Made by a program: the position numbers and the translations under genes. A stretch of 64,000 nt of DNA from Pelomonas aquatica (lineage in GTDB: Bacteria; Pseudomonadota; Gammaproteobacteria; Burkholderiales; Burkholderiaceae_C), in assembly GCF_026712205.1 (NCBI RefSeq), contig NZ_JAPPUW010000009.1:1-64000 (forward strand), read 5' to 3'. Each line of letters opens with the position of its first letter. Within the stretch, counting starts at the first letter, position 1. Below are positions 15,028-64,000 of the stretch, piece after piece. The notes below the pieces were generated by a model. That model saw only the letters and a list, made by a program, of their open reading frames with translations. It did not search any database and had not been told where the DNA came from.

Positions 15028-15060
15028 TAAAAAGGGCCGGCCACTCGACGCGGCCGGCCC
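15028..15060 (-). terminator. Rho-independent terminator of the first RND operon
   Basis: On the minus strand a nine-base perfect stem (GGGCCGGCC at 15052-15060 and 15034-15042, nine-base loop) is followed by TTTTTAC. It lies about 30 bases past the transporter stop codon, and also sits after the stop of the convergent gene at 15002. Confidence 0.8.
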
Positions 15061-20795: not shown

Positions 20796-20819
20796 AAGGC
20801 GGCCTGTCAAGGCCGCCTT
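20796..20819 (-). terminator. Terminator after the CBS-domain gene
   Basis: Nine-base perfect arms AAGGCGGCC (20796-20804) and GGCCGCCTT (20811-20819) enclose a six-base loop. On the minus strand the stem is followed by TGCTTTGG, a weak T-rich tail. It lies 15 bases after the CBS-gene stop and 31 bases before aroC. Confidence 0.7.
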
Positions 20820-30184: not shown

Positions 30185-31584
30185 CGGCCTTTCTGTCGGC
30201 CCTGGGCGAGCGGCTGGGCGCGGCCGGGCTGCTGGTCGGCGGCGACCTGTCGGCCTACGAGCGCGACTGGCGCAAGCGCTACCCCGGTCGCGCGCTGGCC
30301 GTGGCCCGGCCGGCCTCGACCGACGAAGTGGCCGAGGTGCTCAGGCTCTGCCGGCAGCACCGCGTGCCCGTCGTGCCCCAGGGCGGCAACACCGGCCTGG
30401 TGGGCGGCTCGACGCCCGACGACAGCGGCACGCAGCTGGTGCTGAGCCTCGCGCGCATGAAGCGCGTGCGCGGCGTCGACGTCGCCAACGTCAGCCTCAG
30501 CGCCGAGGCCGGCTGCGCGCTGGCCGACGTGCAGGCGGCGGCCGCCGCGGCCGGCCTGCTGTTCCCGCTCAGCCTCGCGTCCGAGGGTTCGTGCACGCTC
30601 GGCGGCAACCTGGCGACGAATGCCGGCGGCACGCAGGTGCTGCGTTATGGCAATGCGCGCGAACTCTGCCTGGGGCTGGAGGTGGTCACCGCCGCCGGCG
30701 AGATCTGGCACGGGCTCTCGGGCCTGCGCAAGGACAACACGGGCTATGACCTGCGCGACCTCTTCATCGGCAGCGAGGGGACGCTCGGCGTCATCACCGC
30801 CGCGACGATGAAGCTCTACCCGCAGCCCAGGGACCGTCTGACCGCGCTGGCGGCCTGCGCGTCGCTGGACGCCGCCGTCGCGCTGCTGGGCCTGGCGCGC
30901 GAGCGCGCTGGCGATGCGCTGACCGGCTTCGAAGTCATGAGCCATGCCGCGCTGGCCCTGCTGGCGCGCGAGCTGCCCCAGCTGCAGCAGCCCACGGGCG
31001 CGGCGGCCTGGACCGTGCTGCTGGAGATCTCGGACGCCGAAAGCGAAGCGCATGCGCGCGCGGTCTTCGAGGGCCTGCTGGAGGCGGCCATCGAGCGCGG
31101 CTGCGTGCAGGATGCGGCCATCGCGCAGAACCTGCAGCAGGCACTGGCCTTCTGGCATCTGCGCGAATCCATCCCGCTGGCCCAGGCCCAGGCGGGCCTG
31201 AACATCAAGCACGACATCGCGCTGCCGGTGTCGGCCATCGCTCCCTTCGTCGCCGAGATGGACGCGGCGCTGATGGCCTATCTGCCCGGCATCGCGGTCA
31301 TCAACTTCGGCCATCTGGGCGACGGCAATCTGCACTACAACGTGCAGGCGCCGGCCGGCGTCGCGCCGGCCGCGTTCCTGGCCGCCCACGAGACGGCCAT
31401 CAATGAATTGGTCTACGACGCCGTGCAGCGGCGCGGCGGCTCGATCTCGGCCGAGCACGGCATCGGCCGGCTCAAGCGCGACGAGCTGGCCGCGCGCAAG
31501 GACCCGGTCGCGCTGGGCCTGATGCGGGCCATCAAAAAGGCCCTGGATCCCCAGGGCCTGCTCAATCCGGGCCGCTTGCTTTAG
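30181..31584 (+). CDS. FAD-linked D-2-hydroxyacid dehydrogenase (GlcD/D-2-hydroxyglutarate type)
   Basis: A 467-residue flavoprotein of the VAO/PCMH family. The FAD-binding domain (about 40-220) shows VVPQGGNTGLVGGSTP and GGNLATNAGGTQVLRYGNARE; the cap domain contains NFGHLGDGNLHYNV; the C-terminus has SAEHGIGRLKRDEL...[15 protein letters not shown]. Relatives oxidise glycolate, D-lactate or D-2-hydroxyglutarate. No glcE/glcF subunits or Fe-S partner are adjacent, so a single-chain D-2-hydroxyglutarate or D-lactate enzyme is more likely than glycolate oxidase. The stop codon overlaps that of the convergent RND gene. Confidence 0.88.
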   Translation: MTAFLSALGERLGAAGLLVGGDLSAYERDWRKRYPGRALAVARPASTDEVAEVLRLCRQHRVPVVPQGGNTGLVGGSTPDDSGTQLVLSLARMKRVRGVDVANVSLSAEAGCALADVQAAAAAAGLLFPLSLASEGSCTLGGNLATNAGGTQVLRYGNARELCLGLEVVTAAGEIWHGLSGLRKDNTGYDLRDLFIGSEGTLGVITAATMKLYPQPRDRLTALAACASLDAAVALLGLARERAGDALTGFEVMSHAALALLARELPQLQQPTGAAAWTVLLEISDAESEAHARAVFEGLLEAAIERGCVQDAAIAQNLQQALAFWHLRESIPLAQAQAGLNIKHDIALPVSAIAPFVAEMDAALMAYLPGIAVINFGHLGDGNLHYNVQAPAGVAPAAFLAAHETAINELVYDAVQRRGGSISAEHGIGRLKRDELAARKDPVALGLMRAIKKALDPQGLLNPGRLL

Positions 31585-57344: not shown

Positions 57345-57740
57345 ATGTTCTACCTGACCCACCCCCGCCATGTCGCCCGCGTGCTGCGCCAGTTCGATGC
57401 CGACAGCGATGCGGCCCGCACGCCCGCGCTGGACGTCAGCGAGGACGACAAGGGCTACCACGTCACCGTGGACATGCCGGGCGTCGCCAAGGAGGCCGTC
57501 AAGGTCCGCGTCGAAGGCCGCCGCGTGCACATCGAGACCGCCGCCGAAGAAGCCGCCGCGCCGACCGACGGCTCGCGCCTGCTTTACCGCGAACGCCGCG
57601 CGGCGCGCTACGCCCGCAGCTTCTCACTGCCCGTCGAGATCGACCCGGGGCAATCGCAGGCCCGCTTCGAGAACGGCGTGCTGACGCTGGACCTGGGCAA
57701 GCGCGTCGCCGACAACGGCGGCCAGCTGACCGTCAACTAA
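57345..57740 (+). CDS. Hsp20/alpha-crystallin small heat-shock protein
   Basis: A 131-residue small heat-shock protein. The alpha-crystallin domain spans about residues 27-120 ([37 protein letters not shown] ... [25 protein letters not shown]). The protein is short, with a brief N-terminal arm, so it resembles class II IbpA-like proteins. A GGAG ribosome-binding site precedes the ATG. It holds unfolding proteins and is likely heat-induced from the upstream site. It is convergent with tsaD, overlapping by four bases. Confidence 0.92.
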
Positions 57741-58780
57741 GCGGCGGTCAAGTCCCAGCGCGGGCGGACCTCGAAGCCGCCGTCCTGCCGCGGCCGGGCC
57801 ATGCCGCGCTGCAGGCGCAGCGCGGCGGCCATCGCGATCATGGCGCCGTTGTCGGTGCACAGCGACAGCTCCGGATAGTGCACGCGCACGCCCCGCTTGG
57901 CGCAGACGGCGTTCAGCTGCTCGCGCAGCCTGGCGTTCGCGCCCACGCCGCCGGCGACGACGAGGCGCTTCAGGCCCGTTTCCTTCAACGCCAGCAGCGA
58001 CTTCTTCACCAGCACGTCGACGATGGCCGCCTGCGTCGACGCGGCCAGGTCAGCCTTGGTCTGCTCGCAGGGAGATTCGCCGATCTTCTTCACCTGCGTC
58101 AGCACAGCCGTCTTCAGGCCGGCGAAGCTGAAGTCCGGCTTGCCGCTGTGCAGCAGCGGGCGCGGCAGCTCGAAGGCCTCCGGGTTGCCGAACTCGGCCA
58201 TGCGCGCCAGATGTGGGCCGCCCGGGTAAGGCAGGCCCAGCAGCTTGGCGCTCTTGTCGAAGGCCTCGCCGGCCGCGTCGTCGATGGTCTCGCCGAGGAT
58301 CTCGTAACGGCCCATGTCGTCCACGCGCATCAGCTGCGTGTGGCCGCCGCTGACCAGCAGCGCGACGAAGGGAAACTGCGGCGGGTCGACCGACAGGAAG
58401 GGCGACAGCAGATGCCCTTCGAGGTGATGGATGGGCAGCGCCGGCACGTCCAGCGCGGCGGCCAGCGACACGGCCACGCCGGCGCCCACGAGCAGCGCGC
58501 CCGCGAGGCCGGGGCCTTGCGTGTAGGCGACGAGGTTCACGTCATGCAGCGCCAGGCCTGCCTGCGACAGCACCTCGCGCGTCAGCGGCAACACGCGGCG
58601 CACATGGTCGCGCGAGGCCAGCTCGGGCACGACGCCGCCGTAGGCCTGATGCATGCTGATCTGGCTGTGCAGCGCCTGGGCCACCAGCCTCGGCGGCTGG
58701 TCGCCGTCGACCTCGACGAGCGCAACCCCGGTCTCGTCGCAGGACGACTCGAAACCGAAGACACGCTGGATGGCACTCAC
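57737..58780 (-). CDS. tsaD: tRNA N6-threonylcarbamoyltransferase TsaD
   Basis: A 347-residue ASKHA-fold enzyme that transfers threonylcarbamoyl to A37 of ANN-decoding tRNAs. Signatures are [14 protein letters not shown] near the start, the metal-binding HLEGH motif (His119/His123) and [15 protein letters not shown]. The start is GTG 58780, overlapping the fdx stop by four bases, with GGAAGG just upstream; a longer in-frame extension to 59035 runs through fdx. It is co-directional with the isc cluster. Confidence 0.96.
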
Positions 58781-59115
58781 TTGCCTTCCTTGGCGTGATT
58801 GATCGAGTACTTGGGAATCTCGATCGTCACGTCCTGCTGGCGCAGCAGCGCTTGGCAGGACAGCCGCGAATCCGGCTCCAGGCCCCAGGCGCGGTCCAGC
58901 ATGTCCTCCTCGTCCTCCTCCATCTCGGACAGGGAGCGGCCGCCCTGGCGCACGATGACGTGGCAGGTCGTGCAGGCGCAGACCTGGTCGCAGGCGTGCT
59001 CGATGTCGACATGGTTGGCCAGCAGCGCCTCGCAAATCGACGTGCCGGGTTCGGCGGTCACCGTCCTGCCCTCGGGGCAGTATTCGGCGTGCGGGAGGAT
59101 GGTGATGACGGGCAT
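58777..59115 (-). CDS. fdx: ISC-type [2Fe-2S] ferredoxin
   Basis: A 112-residue adrenodoxin-like ferredoxin. Cluster ligands Cys42, Cys48, Cys51 and Cys87 ([21 protein letters not shown]) have the same numbering as E. coli Fdx, and Cys46 is also conserved. It supplies electrons for cluster assembly. The ATG at 59115 is chosen over 59142, which overlaps hscA. The last isc gene, overlapping tsaD. Confidence 0.96.
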
Positions 59116-59125
59116 GGTGTGAGTC

Positions 59126-60970
59126 TCAGAGCTGGCTGACATCGCGGCCCGTCAGGGCGCGGGCGATGGAGCGGTTCATGCGTTCGGCGGCGAAGCCTTC
59201 GGTGGCCTCGGCCAGCGCTTTCACGGCGGCGTCGATGGCGTCGGCATCGCCGTCCATCCGCGCCAGCGCCGCCAGCCGGGCTTCGAGCGCTTCGCGCTCG
59301 GCCTCGGGCAGCAGGTCGCCATCGGCCGCGAGCGCGCTGTGGGTCGCGAGGACCATGCGCTCGGCCTCCACCTTGGCCTCGCGCAGCTTGCGCGCGGCCA
59401 TGTCGGCGTCGGCACTGGCGAAACCATCCTTCAGCATGCCGGCGATCTGGTCGTCGGACAGGCCGTAGCTGGGCTTGACGGTGATGGCCGCCTGCGCGCC
59501 GGAGGTCAGCTCCTCGGCGGACACGCTGAGCAGCCCGTCCGCATCGACCTGGAAGCTGACACGGATGCGCGCCGCGCCGGCGGCCATCGGCGGGATGCCG
59601 CGCAGCTCGAAGCGCGCCAGCGAACGGCATTCGCTGACCAGCTCGCGCTCGCCCTGCACGACGTGGATGGCCATGGCGGTCTGGCCGTCCTTGAAGGTCG
59701 TGAAGTCCTGGGCCTTGGCGACGGGGATGGTCGAGTTGCGCTCGATGACGCGCTCGACCAGGCCGCCCATGGTTTCCAGACCCAGTGACAGCGGGATCAC
59801 GTCCAGCAACAGGATCTCGCCATCGGCGGCGTTGCCGGCGAGCTGGTTGGCCTGGATGGCGGCGCCGAGAGCGACGACCTCGTCCGGGTTCAGATTGGTC
59901 AAGACCTCGCGGCCGAACAGCTCACCGACGGCGCGGCGCACGATGGGCATGCGCGTCGAGCCGCCGACCATGACCGTGCCCTGCACGTCCGCAGCCTTGA
60001 CCTTGGCGTCGCGCAGCACGCGCTTCACGGACGACAGCGTCTTGGCGATCAGAGGCTGGGCCAGTGCCTCGAATTGCGCACGCGTGACCGTCACGCGCAG
60101 TTCGCCGGCATCCAGCGCGGCGACGAGTTCGGCCGCATCGGCGTCCGACAGCGCCTCCTTGGCCGCACGCGCGGCGACGAGCACGGCACGTTTGTCGTGA
60201 GCGGACTCGACGGCGCGGCAGCCCAGCGCCCAGTCGGCCAGCGCACGGTCGAAGTCGTCGCCACCCAGGGCCGCATCGCCGCCGGTCGCCACGACCTCGA
60301 AGACGCCGCGCGTCAGGCGCAGCAGCGAGATGTCGAAGGTGCCGCCGCCCAGGTCGTAGACCGCATAGAGGCCTTCGCTGGCGTTGTCCAGGCCGTAGGC
60401 AATGGCCGCGGCCGTGGGCTCGTTGATGAGGCGCAGCACCTTCAGGCCGGCCAGCTCGGCGGCATCCTTGGTGGCCTGACGCTGGGCGTCGTCGAAATAG
60501 GCCGGCACGGTGATGACGGCGCCGAACAGGTCGTCGACGAAGCTGTCCTCGGCGCGGAAGCGCAGCGTCGCCAGGATCTCGGCCGACACCTCGACGGGGC
60601 TCTTCGCGCCGTCACGCGTCGCGAGGGCCAGCATGCCGGGGCGGTCCTCGAAGCGGTAGGGCAGGCGCTCGCGGTTGGCCACGTCGGCCACGGCGCGGCC
60701 CATGAAGCGCTTGACCGAGACGATGGTGTTCTCGGGGTCTTCGGCCTGGGCTGCCAGAGCGTCGGCGCCGATCTGGCGGCGGCCTTCGGGCAGATAGCGC
60801 ACGGCCGACGGCAGGATCACGCGCCCCAGCCCGTCGGGCAGGCATTCGGCCACGCCGTGGCGCACGGCGGCGACGAGGGAATGCGTCGTGCCGAGGTCGA
60901 TGCCGACGGCGATGCGGCGCTGGTGCGGGTCGGGCGACGCGCCGGGTTCGGAAATCTGGAGAAGTGCCAT
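59126..60970 (-). CDS. hscA: Fe-S protein assembly chaperone HscA
   Basis: A 614-residue DnaK-like ATPase. It has the nucleotide-binding signatures [29 protein letters not shown] and [20 protein letters not shown], followed by a substrate-binding domain. It acts with HscB on IscU, recognising its LPPVK motif, to help transfer clusters. It starts two bases after hscB and shows the DnaK fold at the length of HscA (616 in E. coli). Confidence 0.96.
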
Positions 60971-60972
60971 GG

Positions 60973-61491
60973 TCAGGCGTCGAGCGCGGCGAGGCGCTGG
61001 TCGATATCGGTGCGGAAACGCTGGATGAACATCAGCGCCCTCACCTGCGCGGCGGCGGCCGGCGCGTCGTGGTTGTCATCGAGCAGGCGCTGGGCCTGGG
61101 CCAGCGCGGCGGCCTCGGCCTGTGCCGCATCGTCGTCGAGAGCTTCGAGCGCGGACTCGTCGCCCGCGTCGTCCAGCGCCTCGCGCCATTCCATCTGCTG
61201 CATCAGGAAGGCTGCGGGCATGGCCGTGTTGTTCTCGGCCTGCACCGGCGCGCCGCGCAGCCCGCACAGATAGGCCGCCCGCTTGAGCGGATCCTTCAGG
61301 CGCTGGTAGGCCTCGTTGACGCGCATGGCCCATTGCATGGCCACGCGCTGGGCGGCGGCGCCTTCAGCGGCGAAGCGGTCGGGATGGACCTCGGCCTGCA
61401 GCGCCTTCCAGCGCGCGTCGATGTCGGCGCGCGACTGTGCCTGGGTTTCAGGCAGGCCGAAGAGCTGGAAGTCGTTGTCGGTCAGTCGCAT
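60973..61491 (-). CDS. hscB: Fe-S protein assembly co-chaperone HscB
   Basis: A 172-residue J-protein. The J-domain (residues about 6-75) has the HPD motif at His36-Asp38 (AEVHPDRFA), and the C-terminal helical domain binds IscU. It stimulates HscA. It follows iscA across a terminator-like hairpin, unlike the tight spacing of the rest of the operon. Confidence 0.96.
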
Positions 61492-61511
61492 GCTGCGGCG
61501 AGAAAGTAAAA

Positions 61512-61531
61512 AGCGCGGCCAATGCCGCGCT
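61512..61531 (-). terminator. Rho-independent terminator between iscA and hscB
   Basis: On the minus strand AGCGCGGC (61531-61524) pairs with GCCGCGCT (61519-61512) around an ATTG loop, followed by TTTTACTTTCT. It lies 20 bases past the iscA stop and 20 bases before hscB, so part of the transcription would end before hscBA-fdx. Confidence 0.8.
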
Positions 61532-61551
61532 CAGCCAGAACCCTGCCCTTG

Positions 61552-61875
61552 TCAGACACGGAAGGATTCGCCGCAGCCGCAGCGATCCTTCTCGCGCGGG
61601 TTGCGGAACTTGAAGCCTTCGTTCAGGCCTTCGCGCACGAAGTCCAGCTCGGTGCCGTCGAGGTAGGGCAGGCTCTTGGGGTCGATCAGGATCTTGACCT
61701 CGTGGCCCTCGAAGACGACGTCCTCGGGCGCGACCTCGTCGGCGTATTCGAGCTTGTAGGCCAGGCCCGAGCAGCCCGTCGTCTTGACGCCCAGGCGCAC
61801 GCCGACGCCCTTGCCGCGCTTGGCGATGTAGCGCTTCACATGGCGGGCAGCAGCCTCGGTCAGGGTCACCGACAT
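61552..61875 (-). CDS. iscA: Iron-sulfur carrier IscA
   Basis: A 107-residue A-type carrier with ligands Cys35, Cys99 and Cys101 (TTGCSGLAY and DRCGCGESF), identical in number to E. coli IscA. It delivers iron or clusters to apo-proteins. One base separates it from iscU. Confidence 0.97.
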
Positions 61876-61876
61876 A

Positions 61877-62263
61877 TCAATTCGCGTGCTTGGCGCGGTA
61901 GTCGTCCACGGCGGCCTTGATGGCGTCCTCGGCCAGGATGGAGCAGTGGATCTTGACCGGCGGCAGCGCCAGTTCCTCGGCGATCTGCGTGTTCTTGATC
62001 GTCAGCGCTTCGTCCAGGCTCTTGCCCTTGACCCATTCGGTCACGAGGGAGCTGGAGGCGATGGCCGAGCCGCAGCCATAGGTCTTGAACTTGGCGTCCT
62101 CGATGAGGCCGGTCGCCGGGTTGACCTTGATCTGCAGCTTCATCACGTCGCCGCAGGCCGGGGCGCCGACCATGCCGGTGCCGACGTCCTCGTCGCCGTT
62201 TTCAAACTTGCCGACGTTGCGGGGGTTCTCGTAGTGGTCGACGACCTTTTCGCTGTATGCCAT
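61877..62263 (-). CDS. iscU: Iron-sulfur cluster scaffold IscU
   Basis: A 128-residue scaffold on which clusters are built. Ligands are Cys37, Asp39, Cys64 and Cys107 ([27 protein letters not shown]). The HscA recognition motif LPPVK is at residues 100-104. It starts ten bases after iscS. Confidence 0.98.
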
Positions 62264-62273
62264 GGTGTTCTCC

Positions 62274-63494
62274 TCAGTGGGCGGCCCACTGGATGGTGCT
62301 CAGGTCCACGCCGTCCTTGTACATGTCCCACAGCGGGGACAGCTCGCGCAGCTTGGCGACGCGGTCGGTCAGCACGCTGACGGCGTAGGCTATCTCTTCC
62401 TCGGTCGTGAAGCGGCCGATGGTCATGCGCAGCGAGCTGTGGGCCAGTTCGTCGCTGCGGCCCAGTGCGCGCAGCACATAGCTGGGCTCCAGGCTGGCCG
62501 AGGTGCAGGCCGAGCCGGACGACACCGCCAGGCCCTTCACGCCCATGATGAGCGACTCGCCCTCGACGTAGTTGAACGAGATGTTCAGGTTGTGCGGCAC
62601 GCGCTGTTCGAGGTCGCCGTTGATGAAGGTCTGCTCGATGCCCGACAGGCCCTGGATCAGCCGGTTGTGCAGCACGCGAATGCGCTCGTTCTCGGTGCCC
62701 ATCTCCTCGCGGGCGATGCGGAAGGCCTCGCCCATGCCGACGATCTGGTGCACGGGCAGCGTGCCCGAGCGCATGCCGCGCTCATGGCCGCCACCGTGCA
62801 TCTGCGCCTCCAGGCGCACGCGCGGCTTGCGGCGCACGTAGAGCGCGCCGATGCCCTTGGGGCCATAGGTCTTGTGCGAGGCCAGGCTCATCAGGTCGAT
62901 GGGCAGTTGGGCCATGTCGATCTCGACCTTGCCGGTGGCCTGGGCCGCGTCGACGTGGAAGATGATGCCGCGCTCGCGGCAGATATTGCCCAGCGCGACC
63001 ACGTCCTGGATGACGCCGATCTCGTTGTTGACGTACATGACCGAGGCCAGGATGGTGTCCGGGCGCAACGCGGCCTTGAAGGCTTCCAGGTCGACGAGGC
63101 CGTTCTCCAGCACATCGAGATAGCTCACGTCGAAGCCCTGGCGCTCCAGCTCGCGCATCGTGTCGAGCACGGCCTTGTGCTCGGTCTTCACGGTGATGAG
63201 GTGCTTGCCGCGGGTCTTGTAGAACTGGGCGGCGCCCTTCAGTGCCAAGTTATTGGACTCGGTGGCGCCCGAGGTCCAGACGATCTCGCGCGGGTCGGCG
63301 CCGATCAGCTCGGCCACCTGCGTGCGCGCCTTCTCGACCGCCTCTTCCGCCTCCCAGCCCCAGGCGTGGCTGCGCGACGCCGGGTTGCCGAAGTGCTCGC
63401 GCAGCCAGGGGATCATCGCGTCCACCACGCGGGGGTCGCACGGCGTCGTCGCGCCGTAGTCGAGGTAGATCGGGAAATGCGGGGTCATGTCCAT
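62274..63494 (-). CDS. iscS: Cysteine desulfurase IscS
   Basis: A 406-residue class V aminotransferase-fold PLP enzyme that extracts sulfur from cysteine. The PLP lysine is Lys208 ([13 protein letters not shown]) and the persulfide cysteine is Cys330 ([14 protein letters not shown]), on the mobile loop. It provides sulfur for clusters and tRNA thiolation. It begins 23 bases after iscR. Confidence 0.98.
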
Positions 63495-63517: not shown

Positions 63518-64000
63518 TTACTTGCTGAACGCGCCGCTGAGATTTCCACCCAGGGCGAACACGGAGTTCGGCGCCGTCACGCGGATGGGCTTGAGCACCG
63601 GCTGGCTGGAGATGGCGCGCTTGACCGGCGCCGCCTCGACCTCGAAGCCCTTGGCCAGCTGCTCGTCGGCGAGCTTGCGCAGGGACACGGAGTCGAGGTA
63701 CTCGATCATCTTGGCGTTCAGATTGGTCCAGAGTTCATGGGTGATGCAGCGGCCGCTGTCCTCGCCCATGCAGTTTTCCTTGCCGCCGCAGCCGGTGGCG
63801 TCCAGCGCCTCGTCCACGGCGACGATGATGTCGGCGACGGTGATGTTCTCGGCCTTGCGGCCGAGGGAGTAGCCACCGCCCGGGCCACGGGTACTTTCCA
63901 CCAATTCGTGGCGGCGCAGCTTGCCGAACAGCTGCTCCAGGTAGGAGAGCGAAATCTGCTGCCTTTGGCTGATCGCCGCCAGGGCCACGGGGCCGGTATT
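63518..64000 (-). CDS. iscR: Iron-sulfur-responsive Rrf2 regulator IscR (5' end beyond window)
   Basis: The window holds 160 residues; the first residues and promoter lie past base 64000. The winged-helix region reads [44 protein letters not shown]. Cluster ligands are three cysteines in [22 protein letters not shown] (codons near 63788, 63770 and 63746), with a His after the third. The spacing is C-x5-C-x7-C, while E. coli IscR has x5 and x5. With cluster bound it represses the isc operon; without cluster it activates other sites. A GTG at 63988 is not the true start because the frame continues upstream. Confidence 0.95.

Follow-up and report, generated by a model that had tools for sequence, protein, structure and literature searches.

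The isc operon is commonly depicted as a single unit, and the locus described here raises the question of whether a hairpin between two of its genes divides that unit into parts of unequal output. The window, i.e. the whole stretch of 64,000 nucleotides from Pelomonas aquatica that was analysed, carries on its minus strand the genes iscR-iscS-iscU-iscA-hscB-hscA-fdx in this order, followed by a tsaD-like gene (Table 1). Its HscB is 93% identical to that of Roseateles saccharophilus, which places the window in the Roseateles/Rhizobacter group. The names of all genes other than hscB are presumed from the sequence and supported by the order in related loci.

Table 1. Features of the isc region and further strong terminator-like hairpins, with positions in the window
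Feature	Position	Strand	Remarks
iscR, regulator, cut by window end	63518..64000	minus	presumed name; related loci show the same order wherever placed
iscS, cysteine desulfurase	62274..63494	minus	presumed name; related loci show the same order wherever placed
iscU, scaffold	61877..62263	minus	presumed name; related loci show the same order wherever placed
iscA, A-type carrier, last gene before the hairpin	61552..61875	minus	presumed name; 77–100% identity across 110 loci
iscA–hscB intergenic gap, holding the hairpin	61492..61551	minus	60 nt, exactly from iscA stop to hscB start
stem-loop GAGCGCGGC-ATTG-GCCGCGCTT	61511..61532	minus	9 pairs, 7 of them G-C; 4-nt loop
T-rich tail TTTACTTTCT right after the stem	61501..61510	minus	read from the sequence
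hscB, co-chaperone, first gene past the hairpin	60973..61491	minus	over the TIGR00714 cut-off
hscA, Hsp70-type chaperone, downstream of the hairpin	59126..60970	minus	presumed name
fdx, ferredoxin, downstream of the hairpin	58777..59142	minus	presumed name
tsaD-like gene	57737..58780	minus	presumed name; GTG start assumed, overlaps fdx end
further strong terminator-like hairpins	15034-15060, 31539-31558, 20798-20817	minus	each 17–30 nt past an ORF end

The hairpin in the iscA–hscB gap

Both the hairpin and its T-tract lie on the minus strand, which is the sense strand of the isc operon, and 19 nt separate the iscA stop codon from the stem. An earlier note on this DNA had placed a hairpin terminator between iscA and hscB, with an eight-base-pair stem and a TTTTAC tail but no mention of the minus strand; the same hairpin was recovered and confirmed as terminator-like, the stem having been read one pair short. 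A GC-rich stem of at least about 7 pairs with a short loop, followed on the sense strand by a T-rich tract, is what characterizes intrinsic terminators, and all of this was found. Folded by itself, the 33-nt hairpin reaches −17.5 kcal/mol (z −3.5), a value matched by 1 of 200 shuffles, and it pairs with a probability of 0.74–1.0 when folded in a 209-nt context made up of the iscA end and the gap. For the whole gap stretch (63 nt folded), z is only −1.8 and 9 of 200 shuffles are as good. No Rfam match was obtained at gathering thresholds for 57–64 kb of the window.

Two callers were used for terminator-like sites, a strict one and a looser one allowing bulges, both of which demand T's after the stem. 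Between 57.5 and 64 kb, four such sites were observed against 2.8 ± 1.7 in shuffles; since this count is not above chance, conservation had to decide. The iscA–hscB hairpin has the longest stem among these four and ranks second by energy among the 13 calls that the stricter caller makes in the 64-kb window. Each of the four strongest calls in the window lies 17–30 nt past the end of a mechanically found ORF on its own strand, and a second, overlapping ORF encloses two of the other three. Two ORFs of about 1075 codons that precede these further hairpins resemble what we take to be RND pump genes.

Because the probable GTG start of the tsaD-like gene overlaps the end of fdx, this gene too lies downstream of the hairpin. 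It follows fdx in the window and in only 6 of 70 named loci, and was rejected as the general gene downstream of fdx; in many other named loci that place is taken by a gene presumed to be dnaQ-like. At its other end, the tsaD-like gene converges with a plus-strand gene (57345-57740, presumably small heat-shock-like), the 3′ ends of the two overlapping at 57737-57740.

Recurrence at one junction

The family sample comprised 150 genomes spread over genera, the window's own included. A match was present in 144, of which 141 were used further after G027, G093 and G100 (partial or weak) had been left out, and one more had no iscA match, leaving 140. A second sample of 80 named close loci overlaps the first in species, and the same gap occurs in L012 and L052 and again in L014 and L051. 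The counts on 112 hairpins and 128 loci given further below pool both samples.

With the strict caller, a hairpin was called at the iscA–hscB junction in 66 of the 140 family genomes, against 0/121 at iscS–iscU, 1/138 at iscU–iscA and 0/30 at hscB–hscA. The element thus sits where the earlier note had it, separating iscRSUA from hscBA-fdx, and the conservation on which that note had made its reading depend is present. In the named loci the same caller gave 46/80 at iscA–hscB, 0/77 at iscS–iscU, 0/80 at iscU–iscA, 0/79 at hscB–hscA and 1/73 at hscA–fdx; the iscR–iscS gap is longer (median 77 nt), yet it also yielded 0/77. Judged by gene order, the co-directional genes between which the hairpin recurs would belong to one operon.

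The looser caller found 77/140 iscA–hscB junctions in the family, and with one locus from the strict list (L003) the number rises to 78/140. All of these have gaps of at least 20 nt, so that 78 of 111 such gaps (70%) carry a call; by chance, the looser caller alone is expected from shuffles to make 12.2. Among the 98 family gaps of 25–250 nt there were 60 calls, compared with 2.7 on average and at most 6 in dinucleotide shuffles. The signal is also bound to the strand, with 60/98 calls in sense and 1/98 in antisense in the family gaps, and 46/60 and 4/60, respectively, in the named loci.

Beyond the family, the terminator signal fades. In the order set (39 loci from 82 genomes over the family cut-off, taken nearly in score order with two skipped), 10/39 loci had a call where 1.8 were expected, and the controls were less clean: antisense 4/27 against sense 9/27, and 1/38, 2/39 and 2/29 at other junctions. 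The first class set (the best 30 loci of 51 over the cut-off, reduced to 29 by one without an iscA match) gave 2/29, with 0.6 expected. The second (the best 30 of 182 matching genomes, at least 4 of them also in the first class set) gave 4/30 with the looser caller, with 0.95 expected, and 5/30 with the strict one.

Within the family, 62 of the 140 genomes had no call, 29 with a gap shorter than 20 nt and 33 with a longer one, so that the operon split is dispensable. Where the hairpin is missing, hscB frequently follows iscA directly or overlaps it, often with the four bases GTGA shared by the iscA stop and the hscB start; the terminator and the overlap seem to be alternatives to each other. 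An hscB with a GTG start in such a four-base overlap, and no hairpin, is seen in L011, L017, L074, L081, L086, L089, L107 and others. Of these, L081 belongs to Curvibacter, L107 to Hylemonella and L074 to Rhodoferax, and the hairpin is present in other members of Curvibacter and Rhodoferax. The hairpin label forms clusters on the tree, with 37 changes against a shuffled mean of 60.2 (0/500 shuffles as low). The tree is poorly resolved, 91 of its 176 inner branches being open, and its starred branches force at least 9 changes; for these reasons neither a single origin nor a number of gains and losses is claimed. One metagenome-assembled record (L033), titled Methylotenera, has an HscB 92% identical to that of the window and an S-type hairpin (see below), and its title is probably a binning or naming error.

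Some loci hold an additional gene at this junction. An acetyltransferase-like gene of about 150–180 codons, which we take to be of the GNAT kind, lies between iscA and hscB in L022, L044, L180, L237, L244 and L261, and the same insert was recognized by resemblance, in another frame or by its end, in L020, L064, L247, L251 and L275. The iscA–hscB gap in the loci with this insert is about 480–580 nt, and a hairpin is called before the inserted gene in L020, L180, L244, L247 and L251. Three further loci (L219, L236 and L265), with gaps of 226–262 nt, contain a small ORF in which a stretch reading NQGCGCC is conserved.

Two stem types and their conservation

Two unlike stems occupy the same place between iscA and hscB. 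The S-type, GGCGCGGC/GCCGCGCC, is found in the Roseateles/Rhizobacter group including the window (41 sequences), and the C-type, CCGCC/GGCGG with a variable upper part, in Acidovorax, Variovorax and their neighbours (65 sequences, 56 aligned). Identical hairpins and hairpins of neither type were dropped from the stem alignments, which took in 41/41 S-type and 56/65 C-type sequences; the nine C-type sequences left out as near-copies or odd shapes were L042, L047, L057, L062, L069, L070, L088, L103 and L172. Since the sequences had been picked through the hairpin call itself, high pairing is expected and proves nothing. Among the 41 S-type sequences, 11 cells were changed on both sides and still paired, a number reached by 0/500 shuffles. 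Two of the five covariation measures were unremarkable, namely the pairs changed on both sides (3, reached by 31/500 shuffles) and the further pair types (34/500), and the core of the stem shows little variation.

In the C-type alignment the spacing of the half-stems varies and the stem base and the T-tract stay, which suits an RNA better than a DNA operator; the latter was rejected on account of the variable spacing. Three of the T's after the stem never vary among the 56 C-type sequences, and two are conserved to 90% in the S-type, figures to which the demand of the callers for T's contributes. T's are retained even in L020, where hscB lies 508 nt away. This bears on the view that the hairpin is a processing or stability element, which would leave transcription unterminated and shield iscRSUA at the 3′ end left by an RNase cut. 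The strong GC stem speaks for this view, and terminal stem-loops can also protect upstream transcripts, as stated in a study on Clostridia (PMC9045158). However, a T-tract is not needed for it, and the T's are among the best conserved columns (with the same proviso on the callers) and persist at the 508-nt distance of L020, so that pure stabilization appears very unlikely.

The base of the isc stem is better conserved than that of the terminator of the dnaQ-like gene. Over six bases, the mean pairwise identity was 0.754 for the isc hairpin and 0.422 for the other in 34 loci, these being the named loci in which both hairpins were called, unselected by stem type and with loci lacking either excluded; in 24 thinned loci the values were 0.708 and 0.426. 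The corresponding values of 0.778 and 0.414 in 28 loci chosen by stem type are biased by that choice. A finely set efficiency, a reader of the sequence or a slow turnover of GC-rich stems could each account for this conservation. The last is favoured somewhat in view of another conserved hairpin, CCGCCGAAGCTGAAAAGCCCGGCGG-TTTTT, which lies elsewhere and is identical as a 30-base string in 5 of 12 C-type genomes (G004, G010, G088, G136 and G142), with look-alikes in G003 and G085. As a second CCGCC..GGCGG hairpin is thus common to several C-type genomes, the outer C-type stem is not unique.

The difference of 0.754 against 0.422 in the 34 loci could also be taken as a sign of a regulated attenuator, in which an effector, perhaps tied to Fe-S or iron status, would toggle the hairpin between termination and read-through. 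Conservation so high is not exceptional, however, given the exact recurrence of the CCGCCGAAGCTGAAAAGCCCGGCGG hairpin in 5/12 genomes. Moreover, the 209-nt context of the window sequence showed no competing structure, the stem keeping its probability of 0.74–1.0, the spacer from iscA to the stem is not conserved by eye and an Rfam match is absent, and regulated attenuation is accordingly given very little credence. A more far-reaching idea, quite speculative at present, is that the stem base is kept by sequence beyond its pairing because a factor, or a finely set efficiency, adjusts the ratio of scaffold to chaperone, making the hairpin a cis-acting controller of Fe-S stoichiometry in Burkholderiales. 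If this were true, such a controller would also exist in E. coli, perhaps gained separately.

The strict S-stem pattern occurs at two places in the window's own 5.1-Mb genome. On both strands together, a looser S pattern gave 2–5 matches per genome in 11 of 12 genomes and a single match in G091, where the isc hairpin was missed; the C pattern gave 2–11 matches per genome in 12 genomes, the isc site being among them in 12/12. Outside the isc sense hairpin there were 73 strong calls (70 in the 80 named loci and 3 in the window), with a single C-type call among them and a single S-type call; this S-type call is the antisense reading of the isc hairpin in L085. A dispersed repeat or a house-style terminator was rejected, because the strict S-stem stands at two places in its own genome and the other strong calls are seldom C- or S-type, although the second CCGCC..GGCGG hairpin of several C-type genomes weighs the other way. 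The same two-place count argues against a DNA repeat as the nature of the element. A functionless chance hairpin would agree with the number of terminator-like sites in the window, but not with recurrence in the family, strand specificity and junction specificity, and a structure of either meaningless kind is scarcely credible.

Probable read-through and parallels in other operons

Across the 112 pooled hairpins, a median of 21.5 nt separates the stem end from the hscB ATG; this distance is at most 40 nt in 85/112 and ranges from 8 to 508 nt. A consensus promoter scan of the 280 nt before hscB reached at least 9/12 in 0/128 loci and 8/12 in 7/128, compared with 0/50 and 3/50 inside iscS. The scan is a weak one, at least 9/12 being reached before iscR in only 4/48, and at this low power it showed no enrichment of promoter-like sites before hscB over the inside of iscS in the 128 loci. 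From the closeness of the hairpin to the hscB ATG and the lack of such enrichment it follows that hscBA-fdx probably depend on read-through, and the hairpin would thus be a divider at which part of transcription ends after iscA. A role of the T-tract in ribosome binding was rejected, given the 8–508 nt between stem end and hscB and the similar anti-Shine-Dalgarno energies of hscB (means of −2.96 with and −3.76 without the hairpin).

Another way to account for the position of the hairpin is a full terminator between two units, in which iscRSUA would end at the hairpin and hscBA-fdx would have a separate promoter missed by the scan. About ten relatives have the acetyltransferase-like gene between iscA and hscB, five of them with the hairpin before that gene, as two units would allow, and one E. 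coli paper names iscRSUA and hscBA-fdx-iscX apart (PMC9508795). With 85/112 hairpins ending at most 40 nt from the hscB ATG, however, such a promoter would usually have to lie upstream of the hairpin or overlap it, with its transcripts still passing the hairpin, and promoter-like sites were not enriched before hscB, weak as the scan is; two separate units are therefore considered unlikely.

The preferred reading, to which a probability of about 0.72 is assigned, is that the hairpin is a partial intrinsic (Rho-independent) terminator inside the isc operon, its read-through feeding hscB-hscA-fdx in a ratio that would favour IscS, IscU and IscA. Of the polymerases starting at the iscR promoter, a share would halt in the T-tract downstream of iscA, and the iscRSUA mRNA so produced would have its 3′ end protected. 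The remaining polymerases would read on into hscB-hscA-fdx and, in the lineage of the window, into the tsaD-like gene, with the outcome that IscS, IscU and IscA would exceed HscB, HscA and Fdx in a proportion set by the hairpin. Termination in the cell, its partial extent and the ratio as a selected trait are what we infer from these sequences, and unequal output of iscRSUA and hscBA-fdx would be the most likely consequence. That much of a family has a terminator at one junction, and that the genes abut or overlap in many of the genomes lacking it, suggests that selection acts on the proportion of assembly to chaperone components and that this proportion is set in cis. For the isc operon, gene order alone is no warrant for equal expression.

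In the open-licence PMC literature, as far as its texts were accessible, no report of an iscA–hscB terminator or of any internal isc terminator was found. The iscRSUA-hscBA-fdx order is shared by Leptospirillum sp. CF-1, for which one transcript through iscX by RT-PCR and a predicted terminator at the end are reported (PMC9628965). For Comamonas testosteroni S44, the text consulted describes a test of co-transcription within iscRSUA only (PMC4683182).

The closest measured systems are ABC-importer operons of cellulolytic Clostridia, in which internal intrinsic terminators are reported to set the ratio of products (PMC9045158). Like these, the isc element consists of one stem-loop and a T-rich tail within an intra-operon gap, with no anti-terminator seen, and is expected to lower the genes downstream. 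They differ in that termination was measured in Clostridia and is predicted for the isc hairpin, in the genes and the phylum concerned, and in shape: the clostridial terminators have fewer U and longer stems, and the isc hairpin a 9-pair stem and a five-T run, two T's of which are paired.

The earlier note had likened the split to the one achieved by a small RNA in E. coli. This comparison does not hold for junction or mechanism, since RyhB is reported to pair upstream of iscS, whereupon the 5′ part with iscR is stable and the 3′ part is degraded (PMC5040110). What RyhB shares with the role proposed here is unequal output from one isc transcript; it differs as an iron-dependent small RNA that acts through degradation at iscR–iscS, a junction with calls in 0/77 of the named close loci, whereas the isc hairpin would act in cis at iscA–hscB.

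E. coli K-12 (L294) itself has a hairpin, CCCCACCGTGGTCGCCTGCGCGTGGGG-TTTGTTTTAC, in its 95-nt iscA–hscB gap, found by the looser caller only, and no call in its four other isc gaps or in the stretch after iscX. Of 5426 E. coli genomes, 5375 contain the stretch with this hairpin. It resembles the window in its junction and in a GC stem followed by a T-tract (TTTGTTTTAC), and differs from it in stem sequence and in the longer gap (95 against 60 nt); this hairpin is a better E. coli parallel than RyhB. From sequence comparison, the element is likely of a known kind, an internal terminator that sets stoichiometry, and what is new would be its recurrence at the iscA–hscB junction of the isc operon.
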